Source: Acidobacteriota bacterium | GTDB lineage: Bacteria > Acidobacteriota > Terriglobia > Terriglobales > SCQP01 | NCBI GenBank assembly: GCA_021826505.1 | Contig: JAKAZV010000001.1 | Span: 1 to 34,474 of the forward strand | Reading direction: 5' to 3' | Length of the DNA stretch: 34,474 nucleotides | In this document: positions 1-5,191 of the stretch, in pieces | Position numbering within the stretch: the first letter of the stretch is position 1 | How the letters are laid out: each line of letters starts with the position of its first letter | Translations under genes and position numbers: made by a program | Notes under the pieces: generated by a model | Seen by the model: only the letters and a program-made list of their open reading frames with translations | Told to the model about the DNA's origin: nothing | Databases searched by the model: none

Positions 1-1575
1 ATGAAAGTCAACATTTTCAAGCAGCGTCGCGTTCCGGGCGTTGATGGTGTCGGAGAACATGAGACTATCCAGCGGCGAGACGCGGACCGTCCAATAGGTA
101 CTTTCATCGGTGTGCGGGTTCAGCGCAGTGTAGGGCGTGCCGACGGTCACGGTCTGCACCGCGCCATGAATCGCCAGCCAGGAAACCGGGTGATAATCGA
201 GGCCCAGAATCGGCCATGCCGTTTTGATCCGGTGCGTCAGGGTCGGATCCGCGACTCCCTGGCTTAAAAATTCGATATCATCTTTCATCAGCCGCACGCC
301 CGGGCGGATCTGAACCGATGGCCATGGGTTGAGCAGCAGGCTCAGATCGAGTTGCTGCTGGCCCATGCGCCATTCATTGGTTTGCGTATCGGAATACGGG
401 GTGGTGGTGTCGAACAGCGAGGTTTCTGCCGCGACCGCCGTCGTGTCGATGCGGCTATAGCGGTAGTCAGCGAGAAACGCCGCCCACGGCAGCAGTTGCC
501 AATCCAGGCCCTGCGTGGCGATCTGCTCCGGCGAACGGAGATTGGCCCGTGACGAAAGCGCGACGCTATAAGGCTGCGGATTCGCGCCGGAGGGCAGGAC
601 AGACGCCAAGCCATTGAATTCCATGTCGAGCGCCGCCGGGCCGGTGTAGTGATAGGCCATATAGGATCCGTGCCAGCGCAGTTCCGGAAACAGATCGCCG
701 GAATAGGACGTTTCGAGCAAGGGCGAACTCCGTTGAATCGCTTCGACCCAGGAAGCATGCGAGAGCGGTTGATTGCGCGTCGTCGGATCGTCCACGTTGA
801 TCGACAGTTCCGGCGACTGCAAGTTCACCCCATTGATCGCTTCTTCATAGCGATCAAACCCCAGCATGACGCGGACATTCCAGCTATGATAGGAATCTTC
901 GATTCCAGCCCGGATACGCTGGTCGGATTCATCGATGGGGGCCGACATGAGAAATGGATTGCCACGCGCATAGAATCCCCACGAACCCGGCGCTCCATAG
1001 AAATCCAGCGAGCGCGTGGTTTCATCCCAGCCGCTTCTCAGGCTGCTGTCATAGAGAAACCGCAGGCGCAGACGCCGCGTCAGATGGACCGCAAGATCGA
1101 CGTGGCCCACCTTGCGCACGGTGGAATAGGCATGATTGGGCGTGAGCCCATGAAAGCCGCCGGCGATGGCCGCCATATCGTCCTCGCCCCAGGTGAAATA
1201 ACTCTGGCGAAAGTTCACCCGCAGGTCGTAAACACCCGTCTTGTGAACGGTGAGCTGACCAGTCGGGAATGGATCGTTCCCGATGCCGCTCAGGGTGAAA
1301 GAAAATTGATCCGCCCAGGGATTATTTCCCGTGCGGCTTCTGCCGAACAAATCGAAATCGGATAACCCAAGCCCCTTCCGCAAATCGAGCAAGCTGCGGA
1401 ATACTTCACCGTTACCGTGGGTATCGAGGAAGCGCACCGAGGATCCAAAATCTCCCTGGACGGCAAAATCACTCCATCCCGTTCCGATTTCCGGCGCCTG
1501 CTGGGCCGAAGCCGTGGCTACACACCAGAAGAGCGCCGACAGAAGCAGCCCAATCACTCTCGCCCGTGCCAGCAT
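1..1575 (-). CDS. Outer-membrane beta-barrel protein, putative MtrB/PioB-like porin of a porin-cytochrome conduit (C-terminus truncated by window edge)
   Basis: Reverse-strand frame open from ATG at 1575 to position 1 (525 codons); begins MLARARVIGLLLSALFWCVATASAQQAPEIGTGWSDFAVQGDFGSSVRFLD (signal peptide), strong RBS GGGGAGGAAACTC; alternating hydrophobic/polar strands (e.g. LDLSLLLNPWPSVQIRPGVRLMKDDIEF). Not in ORF track because it has no stop in the window. 54 bp downstream of a decaheme cytochrome gene. Confidence 0.65.
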   Translation of the reverse strand, partial: MLARARVIGLLLSALFWCVATASAQQAPEIGTGWSDFAVQGDFGSSVRFLDTHGNGEVFRSLLDLRKGLGLSDFDLFGRSRTGNNPWADQFSFTLSGIGNDPFPTGQLTVHKTGVYDLRVNFRQSYFTWGEDDMAAIAGGFHGLTPNHAYSTVRKVGHVDLAVHLTRRLRLRFLYDSSLRSGWDETTRSLDFYGAPGSWGFYARGNPFLMSAPIDESDQRIRAGIEDSYHSWNVRVMLGFDRYEEAINGVNLQSPELSINVDDPTTRNQPLSHASWVEAIQRSSPLLETSYSGDLFPELRWHGSYMAYHYTGPAALDMEFNGLASVLPSGANPQPYSVALSSRANLRSPEQIATQGLDWQLLPWAAFLADYRYSRIDTTAVAAETSLFDTTTPYSDTQTNEWRMGQQQLDLSLLLNPWPSVQIRPGVRLMKDDIEFLSQGVADPTLTHRIKTAWPILGLDYHPVSWLAIHGAVQTVTVGTPYTALNPHTDESTYWTVRVSPLDSLMFSDTINARNATLLENVDFH

Positions 1576-1629: not shown

Positions 1630-2676
1630 TCACTTCAACAAGTACGGATCGGTATTCGAGCCGTGCACGGCCACGTGGCAGCGCACGCAATCTCCCCGCG
1701 TCTGGAAACCGAGCCGCCCATGCGGCACGTTGTCGGCATGCGGGGCAAGGTGACATTCCAGACACAGGGTCCGGGTATCACGCCGTTTCAATAGCAGCCG
1801 ATTGACGCTGCCGTGAGGTGTGTGACAGGCCAGACAGCCGGTGACGAACGAGGCTGGATGTTCATAGACAAAGGGGCCGCGTTTGCCGGGATGGCATTTA
1901 AGGCATCCGGCCTGACCGATGCGCGCGTTAAAAAGGCCATGTGGGACTCTGCTATGAGGGTTATGGCAGCTGGAACAACTCAGCAATCCCTCAGGCACGC
2001 GATGATGCACAGGCAAGGCAAATTGCGCGCGCACATCGCCGTGACAGGTGTAGCACAGAACCGGCTCGGGCTGTTTCAGCATTCCATCGCGCAGCCAGGT
2101 GAGCTCTTCCGGCCGCTGTGGAACTTCATACAGCATGGCCAATGCCGGCTGCGGCGCAGCATGGATCGGCACAATGTCATCGGTCAGATGCGAGGTGTGG
2201 CACCCGGAGCAATCGACGCCGTTGAGCAGATGGGTCGAGTGTTCAAATCCCGCCTGGCGAGGGCCGCTGGCGTGACAGTAAAGACAATGCTCCGCGTTCT
2301 CGCGCGGCGAGGCATGAAAGCCGAAAATGAGCCGGTTCGCCGCCGCCGTTTTGGCATCGTCGCCATGGGCCGCCCGCTCCGCCCGCGCATGGGCGCGGCC
2401 GGGGCCATGACAGGTTTCGCAGCTCATCAGAGGCTTGCCATTGGGCGCGCGCAGCCGCGCGTGCGGGGTCTTAAGAAACTCCACCACCTCGGCCTTATGA
2501 CAAGACTTGCAATCGCGGATGCTGGCCGATTCGAAGGCGGGAATCGCCGCCGGATGGCGCCAAGCCACCGAGGCGGCATGATGAACGCCCGGCGTGGTTT
2601 GCGCGAAGACAAAGGATGAAAGTGATACCAGGGTTGAGAAGACAAGTCGAAGCGCGAAGCCAGTGGATATTTTCAT
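1630..2676 (-). CDS. Decaheme c-type cytochrome, MtrA/DmsE family
   Basis: Signal peptide MKISTGFALRLVFSTLVSLSSFVFAQ and ten CXXCH motifs (CKSCH, CETCH, CLYCH, CSGCH, CYTCH, CSSCH, CLKCH, CLACH, CLECH, CVRCH); DmsE/MtrA-like segment CLKCHPGKRGPFVYEHPASFVTGCLACHTPHGSVNRLLLK. Confidence 0.93.
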   Translation of the reverse strand: MKISTGFALRLVFSTLVSLSSFVFAQTTPGVHHAASVAWRHPAAIPAFESASIRDCKSCHKAEVVEFLKTPHARLRAPNGKPLMSCETCHGPGRAHARAERAAHGDDAKTAAANRLIFGFHASPRENAEHCLYCHASGPRQAGFEHSTHLLNGVDCSGCHTSHLTDDIVPIHAAPQPALAMLYEVPQRPEELTWLRDGMLKQPEPVLCYTCHGDVRAQFALPVHHRVPEGLLSCSSCHNPHSRVPHGLFNARIGQAGCLKCHPGKRGPFVYEHPASFVTGCLACHTPHGSVNRLLLKRRDTRTLCLECHLAPHADNVPHGRLGFQTRGDCVRCHVAVHGSNTDPYLLK

Positions 2677-2946: not shown

Positions 2947-3879
2947 ATGCGGACTCGTCAGTTGGGGCCAGGTATGCTGCTGCTGGGAATTTTGAGCGCC
3001 GGACTGCCGGCGCAGGTCCGGCTTTCCGGCCGAATCCGGATTCCTCCGCCCGCAACGACCCGCCTGCCGGGCGTGCTGATGGCGCCGGCGGCGCTGCCGG
3101 CGGCGGTGTATTTGCTGCCGGAGCGGCCGACGGCGGCTCTGCCGGGCAGCCAGGATTCATATCTGATACGGGTCGTCTGGAACCACTTTCAACCCGCCCT
3201 GCGGGTGGTGCCGGCCGGCGCGAAGGTGGTATTTGAGAACCAGGGAACCATCAATGTTTCGCTTCAACTGTTGCGGCTGCGCGGGCAGCGGCTGTTCGAG
3301 GGACACTGCGCCATCTGTCATGGCGCCAATGGCGAGGCGATGACCCCGGTCGGCTCCAGTATGCGGCCGCATGCCTTGAATCTGACCGCGCCGGCGATTC
3401 AGGCCAGGAGCGAATCCCAACTGGCGCAAATCGTATGGCACGGCATTGCCGGCAGCGGCATGCCGCGCTGGCATCGCGTGCTCAGCTACGCCGAACTGCG
3501 GCGCATTGTGCACTACGTCAAACAACTGCCGCAACTGGATGCGGGCACCGAGCTGCCGCCGCGGGGCGCGGCCGCGCGCCGGGCGCGCGGCTGGCGGAAT
3601 GAATCGTTGGGCATACTGCGGCCAAACGCAACCCTGGTCCGCCGCTTTCCCAGCCTGGGCATTTATCCGGTGCGCATCGCCGGCCAGAACGGCGAGCGGG
3701 GCTACATCCTGGTGGCGCCGAGCTCCTACTGTAACGTGACCAACGCACAAGGTTATTACCGGCTTCCGCCGGCGCCGCCCGGCCGCTATCAACTGGTGGT
3801 ATGGCATCCCGGCAACCCGGCGGAAACCCGAATCATTGAACTGCATGGTGACAAACAAATAAGTCTGAATCTGCATTGA
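2947..3879 (+). CDS. Secreted cytochrome c domain nested in a cupredoxin-like (methylamine utilization protein-like) domain
   Basis: ATG at 2947 with RBS AGAAAGGATA; signal peptide MRTRQLGPGMLLLGILSAGLPAQ; N part FQPALRVVPAGAKVVFENQGTINVSLQ, heme motif CAICH with distal GMPRW, then LGILRPNATLVRRFPSLGIYPVRIAGQNGERGYILVAPSSYCNVTNAQGYYRLPPAPPGRYQLVVWH. Confidence 0.8.
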   Translation: MRTRQLGPGMLLLGILSAGLPAQVRLSGRIRIPPPATTRLPGVLMAPAALPAAVYLLPERPTAALPGSQDSYLIRVVWNHFQPALRVVPAGAKVVFENQGTINVSLQLLRLRGQRLFEGHCAICHGANGEAMTPVGSSMRPHALNLTAPAIQARSESQLAQIVWHGIAGSGMPRWHRVLSYAELRRIVHYVKQLPQLDAGTELPPRGAAARRARGWRNESLGILRPNATLVRRFPSLGIYPVRIAGQNGERGYILVAPSSYCNVTNAQGYYRLPPAPPGRYQLVVWHPGNPAETRIIELHGDKQISLNLH

Positions 3880-3929
3880 TGTTCCGCTCCGGAAACGGAG
3901 CGGGATCAAGCTCAGGAGGGCCACGATTT

Positions 3930-4304
3930 ATGAATGCTCATTTTCCCAAACGGTTAGGATTCCTGATCACTGTCTCAACTCTACTGATGCTGTGCCTGTG
4001 GTTCGCCCCCATGCTTCCGGCGAGGACTACAGGCGCCGATAGCGCTCAGATTCGCCTCGGCCGAAAAGTATTCATGTCCCGATGCGCAGTCTGTCATAAG
4101 GCGGACGGCACCGGGCAGAGCTATCTCGGTCCCAAAGCCAACCTGCACCGCCGGGTGGTGCAAAAAAAACCTGATGCCAAGCTGGCCGCTTTTATTAAAA
4201 AAGGCTATCCGCCCATGCCGGCCTGGGAAGGGGTGCTGACGCCGGCGCAGCTTCGGGCGGTCATCCGCTTCCTACGGACATTTAAGCCGGCAGGCGGGAA
4301 ATGA
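3930..4304 (+). CDS. Monoheme class I-like cytochrome c
   Basis: ATG at 3930 preceded by CTCAGGAGGG RBS; signal peptide/TM, CAVCH heme motif, YPPMPAW distal Met region and C-terminal helix LTPAQLRAVIRFLRTF. Confidence 0.85.
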   Translation: MNAHFPKRLGFLITVSTLLMLCLWFAPMLPARTTGADSAQIRLGRKVFMSRCAVCHKADGTGQSYLGPKANLHRRVVQKKPDAKLAAFIKKGYPPMPAWEGVLTPAQLRAVIRFLRTFKPAGGK

Positions 4305-4414: not shown

Positions 4415-5191
4415 TCAGGCGTCTTTCAGCATTTGCAATGCGCGCGGTTTAATCAATAGAAAGCCGTTGCCCCGCCGCCGCAGGATGCCTTGCCTGCGCA
4501 GATCAGACAGAATCCGGCTGACGGTTTCGCGCGAGGTGCCAATGCTATCGGCAATGTCCTGCTGAGTCAGCGGAAGATTGACCAGCGTGCCCTGGGGGTT
4601 GTCCTGGCCGTGTTCCAGGGCGTGGGAAAGCAGCAGTTCGGCTAAGCGGGCGCCGACATGACGATGCAACGTCAATATGCGGGTGTGTTCCCAGGATCGC
4701 TGCAACTGCAGGGCGAGAGCCTCGATAATGGTCCGGTAGTTGTTGGGATGGTCGGCTAAAAACGCCAGAAACTGCGCGCGCGGGATGAAGCTGATCTGGC
4801 AGGGCAGCAGAGTTTCCGCGCTGACCGGATAGGGGCTGCCGCTGAGCGAACTGCTGATGCCCAACACCTCGCCCCGGCCGACACGGCGTAAAATTACCGT
4901 GGCGCCTTGCGCGGAATGGGCGAAGGTCTTGATTTCTCCCGAGCAGATCACATAGATGCCGCGCGCCGGCTCACCTTCAAAAAACAGCACCACGCCGCGC
5001 GGATACCAGGCGGTCTGGCGAATCTCGAGCAATTTGGTCAGCTCCGCTTTCTCGAAATGGCCGAGAAAGCAGGTATCGGCGCTGGCGCAACCGTCACAGC
5101 GCGGAATGGTTGAATGGCCGGCTGCCCTGGTAGCAGCAGCGCTCGTTACCTGCGTGCGCTCTGTTGCCCGGGTGATAGGTTTTTGCACCAT
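4415..5191 (-). CDS. Crp/Fnr family transcriptional regulator, FNR-type with probable [4Fe-4S] ligand cysteines
   Basis: N-terminal CDGCASADTC (C-x2-C-x5-C), central LLPCQISF, cNMP-binding-like fold, HTH with SRETVSRILSDLRRQGIL (E..SR recognition helix as in FNR). Confidence 0.88.
   Translation of the reverse strand: MVQKPITRATERTQVTSAAATRAAGHSTIPRCDGCASADTCFLGHFEKAELTKLLEIRQTAWYPRGVVLFFEGEPARGIYVICSGEIKTFAHSAQGATVILRRVGRGEVLGISSSLSGSPYPVSAETLLPCQISFIPRAQFLAFLADHPNNYRTIIEALALQLQRSWEHTRILTLHRHVGARLAELLLSHALEHGQDNPQGTLVNLPLTQQDIADSIGTSRETVSRILSDLRRQGILRRRGNGFLLIKPRALQMLKDA

Follow-up and report, generated by a model that had tools for sequence, protein, structure and literature searches.

Homology places a cytochrome c domain within an amicyanin-like cupredoxin scaffold encoded near Cyc2-like genes in Acidobacteriota

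Cupredoxins of the amicyanin/plastocyanin type that also carry a CarboxypepD_reg domain are often annotated as 'methylamine utilization protein'. The cupredoxin fold also exists without its metal centre, as in quinol-oxidase subunit II (CyoA), in which the copper site has been lost. Chloroflexi encode nitrite reductases, NirK or NirS, to which cupredoxin and cytochrome c domains are fused (PMC8756737). In the model proposed for A. ferrooxidans, electrons pass from Cyc2 to the cupredoxin rusticyanin and then reach either Cyc1 and an oxidase or a bc complex (PMC10654088). Cyc2 proteins have a published signature, AXPXFAR[QK][TY] followed by CXXCH and PXL (Keffer et al. 2021, PMC8406198).

Here we describe CupCyt, a 310-aa exported protein encoded at 2947..3879 on the forward strand of a 34,474-nucleotide stretch of acidobacterial DNA (referred to as the window in the rest of the text). 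CupCyt resembles the CarboxypepD_reg-bearing cupredoxins in scaffold sequence, in the order and length of the two halves and in its export signal, but it lacks all four copper ligands and carries a 113-aa cytochrome c domain in the loop of the first ligand histidine. CyoA likewise has no copper site, but it has no inserted haem either. The NirK and NirS fusions, like CupCyt, combine a cupredoxin and a cytochrome c domain in a single chain, but their domains are joined end to end rather than nested and belong to an enzyme; CupCyt would be a carrier. With rusticyanin and Cyc1 of the Acidithiobacillus rus system, CupCyt shares a proposed role as periplasmic carrier beside a Cyc2-type porin-cytochrome, as well as a cupredoxin ancestor; it differs by a haem nested in the cupredoxin frame, by its cupredoxin lineage and by the downstream complexes. 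We found no precedent for a cytochrome c nested in a cupredoxin in the open-licence literature that we searched, the closest cases being the end-to-end NirK/NirS fusions.

A cytochrome c domain within one cupredoxin scaffold

The limits of the parts of CupCyt were drawn from the translated open reading frame, Pfam searches, alignments and profile matches. A probable signal peptide without lipobox cysteine, identified by reading the sequence (aa 1-23, 2947..3015), precedes the first half of the scaffold (aa 24-101, 3016..3249), which we interpret as the N-terminal strand of a transthyretin-like domain, an inferred assignment, together with the first cupredoxin half. The cytochrome c insert (aa 102-214, 3250..3588), delimited by Pfam, alignment and hhalign, is followed by the second cupredoxin half (aa 215-261, 3589..3729; hhalign and alignment) and by the remainder of the transthyretin-like (CarboxypepD_reg) domain (aa 262-310, 3730..3876; Pfam and profile match). 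Pfam analyses placed cytochrome c at aa 112-194 above cutoffs (PF13442, 9e-10; PF00034, 4e-8), while the match to CarboxypepD_reg (PF13620, aa 264-308, 6.5e-6) was weak and fell under the gathering score. CupCyt meets the criteria for a class-I monohaem cytochrome c, namely a CXXCH motif and a downstream methionine in a GxMP-type motif. The haem-attachment motif CAICH (aa 121-125, 3307..3321) has both cysteines and the histidine invariant in orthologs, and the equally invariant Met172 of GSGMPRW (3460..3462) is the probable distal haem ligand, as inferred from class-I cytochromes c. CAxCH and GSGMPxW are invariant across all five full-length inserted proteins; that the haem is actually present is inferred from these motifs.

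The sequence-only reading had proposed that 2947-3879 encodes a cytochrome c domain inside a cupredoxin-like domain, and homology to uninserted paralogs bears this out. The window genome and its relatives encode proteins of ~200-250 aa, one of them a paralog in the window's own genome (G000:C94), in which the regions matching the N-terminal flank (~aa 10-115) and the C-terminal flank (~219-309) of CupCyt adjoin without any cytochrome separating them. These uninserted proteins match Pfam Copper-bind and CarboxypepD_reg, and their nearest solved relatives are amicyanins (E 3e-6 in PDB). Alignment places the insert in the loop that bears the first histidine ligand of the copper, where ~14 residues (VKHNVSWKAIGGNR) have given way to 113. 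A profile built from ten uninserted paralogs of the window's family matched CupCyt in two segments that keep the order of the profile, first aa 26-106 (i-E 5e-9), then aa 220-309 (i-E 4.5e-14); it gave 89 bits for the whole of CupCyt and 85-97 bits for the real proteins, compared to 11 bits for the best of 10,000 shuffled decoys. The cytochrome c domain thus lies nested within a single amicyanin-like cupredoxin plus transthyretin-like protein, as shown by homology in the absence of a usable structural model. The flank segments quoted in that reading are present where it located them and are indeed the halves of one cupredoxin, although the scaffold additionally includes the transthyretin-like domain; the domain type, given there as methylamine-utilization, is refined to amicyanin-like, and the insert, put there at ~105 aa (about 3274-3592), is 113 aa long (nt 3250-3588). 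Nesting may even extend to a third level, with the cupredoxin lying inside the transthyretin-like domain; we infer this possibility because the CarboxypepD_reg matches start within the profile and the cupredoxin is preceded by an ISGKV-like strand. Cytochromes from the order that match aa 112-258 (L016-L028) were considered as further nested cases and rejected, since they consist of a cytochrome c with an unrelated C-terminal region.

All four type-1 copper ligands (His, Cys, His, Met) are replaced in the five full-length inserted proteins. The first histidine corresponds to Val104 in CupCyt (3256..3258) and to Glu in the orthologs; the cysteine and the second histidine are replaced by Ile244 and Gln247, both invariant in the five proteins, and the methionine by Glu250, with Glu or Ala across the group. 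Uninserted copies in the window's family retain ligands of the His...CTLHPGM type, and eleven remoter homologs inspected outside the family carry HNVF/HNIF...CNVHPEM or near variants, in agreement with the HNVFS and CNIHPxM pattern that the sequence-only reading gave for such domains. The claimed loss of the copper ligands also held, being complete and common to all orthologs. CupCyt therefore satisfies the scaffold-sequence criterion for a cupredoxin but not the copper-ligand criterion of an amicyanin-like type-1 copper protein. No metal analysis is available, and the absence of copper from the protein is inferred.

The inserted form occurs in six genomes (five full-length genes and one partial) of the window's family, among 14 family genomes searched. 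It was not found elsewhere in samples of 397 genomes from the order and 396 from the phylum (E <= 1e-25; the two samples partly overlap), which restricts it to one family of uncultured Acidobacteria among those sampled. Uninserted relatives are present in 200 of 299 genomes of the class (E <= 1e-20), and those inspected retain His...CxxHPxM. A scan of genome contigs with CupCyt as single query found nothing, the same scan with an ortholog alignment returned four named loci, and scans of viral contigs revealed no further homologs; the named records with CupCyt are acidobacterial metagenome bins. The four full-length orthologs are 57-62% identical to CupCyt, and a tree based on scaffold columns groups the inserted proteins in a single clade (SH-aLRT 100). 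The closest ortholog pair has a dN/dS ratio of ~0.18, with constraint on both scaffold and insert; purifying selection acts on the scaffold and on the haem domain in much the same way.

Gene neighbourhoods of the uninserted and inserted forms

Nine of the ten uninserted cupredoxin genes of the family lie directly upstream, on the same strand, of a gene for a Cyc2-like protein (L038-L046, e.g. G000:C94:4068-6293), in nine genomes. The tenth, a second copy in genome G002 (G002:C54, L053:3563-4450), has no Cyc2-like gene in the 8 kb read. As criteria for Cyc2 we used AXPXFAR[QK][TY], a single CXXCH, PXL and a length of at least 365 aa. The proteins of these pairs, hereafter clade A, are ~450-500 aa long, apart from one truncated by a contig end, and have one N-terminal haem with AVPSFARQTGLPCSRCH...PEL or similar; the motif is exact in 6 of 9 and one residue off in the other three (PSYAR or GVPSFAR), so that the family criteria are met. 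The Cyc2-like proteins had no Pfam or NCBIfam match, and the 16-stranded outer-membrane porin that characterises the Cyc2 family is only putative in them. A tree resolved them into two clades supported at 99 and 96. By analogy, the genes for the copper cupredoxin and the Cyc2-type protein would make up an acidobacterial pair resembling that of rusticyanin, away from the known rus operon; their pairing in nine of ten cases within this family is new. The contig of one such pair also encodes a DabA inorganic carbon transporter (L105:4382-7204); no RuBisCO was found in that genome.

CupCyt itself forms a two-gene unit with a small monohaem cytochrome c (3876..4304, forward strand), which is kept in all six genomes. 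At three loci (L058, L059 and L060), CupCyt is directly divergent from a Cyc2-like gene of the second clade (clade B), which is followed either by genes for a dihaem cytochrome, a Rieske protein and cytochrome b or by a Qrc/ACIII-like set comprising QrcA-like c7, QrcB-like MopB, FeS, NrfD, ActD and dihaem c subunits. From its gene content, we infer that this set encodes a quinone-linked complex. Genes for Qrc-like subunits (QrcA, QrcB), ActD and a dihaem cytochrome c were observed adjoining a Cyc2-like gene at L060:3-6320, L061, L094 and L100. The Qrc/ACIII-like set is directly divergent from CupCyt at L061. In genome G002 the Qrc/ACIII-like operon takes this divergent position, and the clade B gene is on a different contig. 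Clade B proteins are 54-59% identical to those of clade A and meet the length, haem and PXL criteria; their motif reads AVPSFSRQT, AVPSYSRQT or, in two cases, GVPSYSRQT. By the published motif their membership in Cyc2 is therefore not strict, and their barrel structure is inferred. Genome G009 encodes a clade B protein (L096:5532-6944) beside a Crp homolog, 65% identical to that of the window genome, yet CupCyt was not found in this genome.

In the window, the divergent neighbour of CupCyt codes for a DmsE-family decahaem cytochrome c with 10 CXXCH motifs (1630..2676, reverse strand; TIGR03508, 198.1 bits, cutoff 192.2). A candidate outer-membrane barrel gene (1..1575, reverse strand) follows and runs off the window into contig C33. 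It was called from its position and a Pfam search, in which the edge-cut gene missed the gathering score of the MtrB/PioB family (PF11854, E 0.13, 11.3 versus 23 bits), and position alone supports calling it MtrB/PioB-like. A Crp/Fnr-family regulator, assigned by Pfam, is encoded at 4415..5191 on the reverse strand, and a homolog is found near CupCyt at L058 and L059 too. Window bases 1-134 are identical but for one mismatch to the end of C33 (L094:6923-7056), an overlap that connects the two contigs within the barrel gene. On C33, the remainder of that gene is accompanied by genes for a cytochrome c and a NapC/NrfH-like trihaem cytochrome and by one more gene, then by a clade B Cyc2-like gene and the start of a Qrc/ACIII-like set; the NapC/NrfH-like trihaem cytochrome and cytochrome c genes (L094:5351-6504) adjoin the barrel and decahaem genes. 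CupCyt is thereby linked in the window genome to a clade B Cyc2-like gene ~7-8 kb away, with extra genes between the two. Among the genomes inspected, the trihaem/barrel/decahaem block between the Cyc2-like gene and CupCyt occurs only in this one.

Proposed electron path, alternatives and significance

The reading towards which we lean, without regarding it as established, is that CupCyt is a soluble periplasmic electron carrier partnering a Cyc2-like conduit, with haem c in place of copper on an old scaffold. The protein would descend from a type-1 copper amicyanin-like cupredoxin that was paired with an outer-membrane porin-cytochrome of the Cyc2 type. One paralog would have exchanged its copper-ligand loop for a complete class-I cytochrome c domain and lost the other ligands, giving a haem-bearing version that serves the paralogous clade B conduit. 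The electron would be carried by haem c (His125/Met172), and we infer that the retained beta-sandwich and transthyretin-like shell probably position the haem domain or dock to the conduit. The putative chain would connect extracellular iron, the Cyc2-like conduit, CupCyt and the small cytochrome c (3876-4304), and the latter to an inner-membrane bc-type or Qrc/ACIII-like complex or an oxidase, each link being drawn as reversible. The pairing of a Cyc2-type gene with the copper cupredoxin of this family would, by analogy, be an independent counterpart of the A. ferrooxidans scheme. In favour of this reading, CupCyt is linked to Cyc2-like genes in four genomes, with Rieske/cytochrome b or Qrc/ACIII-like genes adjacent; the layout in G002, the intervening genes in the window genome, the motif departures of clade B and the lack of CupCyt in G009 count against a partnership with Cyc2. 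The earlier claim that a haem module replaced the copper centre is supported, yet a functional swap is inferred only, from the sequence and the gene neighbourhoods. Without biochemistry or transcript data, the presence of haem in the protein, its lack of copper, its docking to Cyc2 and the direction of electron flow are inferred as well. The direction remains open, with Fe(II) oxidation slightly favoured by inference. Iron-based autotrophy through RuBisCO is not supported, because searches of the CupCyt genomes found no such enzyme.

Two alternatives concern the protein itself. An assembly or gene-prediction artefact could be suspected, every member coming from a metagenome-assembled genome, but it is all but excluded because five full-length genes from separate assemblies share an insert of exactly 113 aa, without internal stops. 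It is also very unlikely that CupCyt is a tandem fusion of three separate domains. This view can draw on the lack of a structural model, AlphaFold2 on the shallow five-sequence alignment having given a mean pLDDT of 39.6 and a pTM of 0.34, which is uninformative either way, so that the structure-prediction check suggested by the sequence-only reading speaks neither for nor against nesting. A further point for it is that the second cupredoxin half (aa 215-261), the piece with the weakest support, does not reach a significant HMM score in CupCyt alone (5 bits). Against it, the two flanks align in order to single uninserted proteins, and the homologs, the other check suggested, are single cupredoxins rather than tandem domains. 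Moreover, the second halves of the four orthologs reach 15.8-20.3 bits, whereas none of 10,000 decoys exceeds 14.6, and profile-profile comparison by hhalign pairs this half ungapped over 45 columns (probability 96.7, E 4e-10).

The other two alternatives accept the nested protein and concern its role. With the same anatomy, CupCyt could move electrons from the quinone pool outward, for the reduction of Fe(III) or another extracellular acceptor. This remains possible: the DmsE decahaem and barrel genes of the window and the NapC/NrfH-like trihaem gene of C33 resemble reductive chains, a Crp/Fnr regulator adjoins the CupCyt unit, the CupCyt genomes have no detected RuBisCO, a reversed operation of Cyc2/rusticyanin chains has been proposed for acidophiles, and some Acidobacteria are known to reduce Fe(III) (PMC8790237). 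However, CupCyt elsewhere adjoins Cyc2-like and bc- or Qrc/ACIII-like genes, not decahaem, barrel and trihaem genes. Alternatively, the scaffold could be a passive remnant and CupCyt a plain monohaem cytochrome c for inner-membrane complexes without a specific Cyc2 partner, as the divergent Qrc/ACIII-like operon in G002 and the 35-36% identity of its cytochrome c domain to stand-alone acidobacterial cytochromes c might suggest. We consider this unlikely, as the scaffold is conserved under selection similar to that on the haem domain, Cyc2-like genes are linked in four genomes and the uninserted paralog also neighbours Cyc2.

The preferred reading, a haem-bearing carrier for a Cyc2-like conduit, can be extended to a metal-centre swap in a Cyc2-dedicated carrier after duplication of the conduit-carrier pair, with copper and haem lines coexisting in one cell; for this bolder version we see the evidence as evenly balanced. 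If true, it would be a rare clear case of cofactor exchange within the same protein frame, for which the un-swapped copper form still present in the same genome would serve as a control, and two carrier types would be linked to two Cyc2-like conduits in acidobacteria. Because of this pairing, it would become directly testable which periplasmic carrier Cyc2 uses outside Acidithiobacillus.
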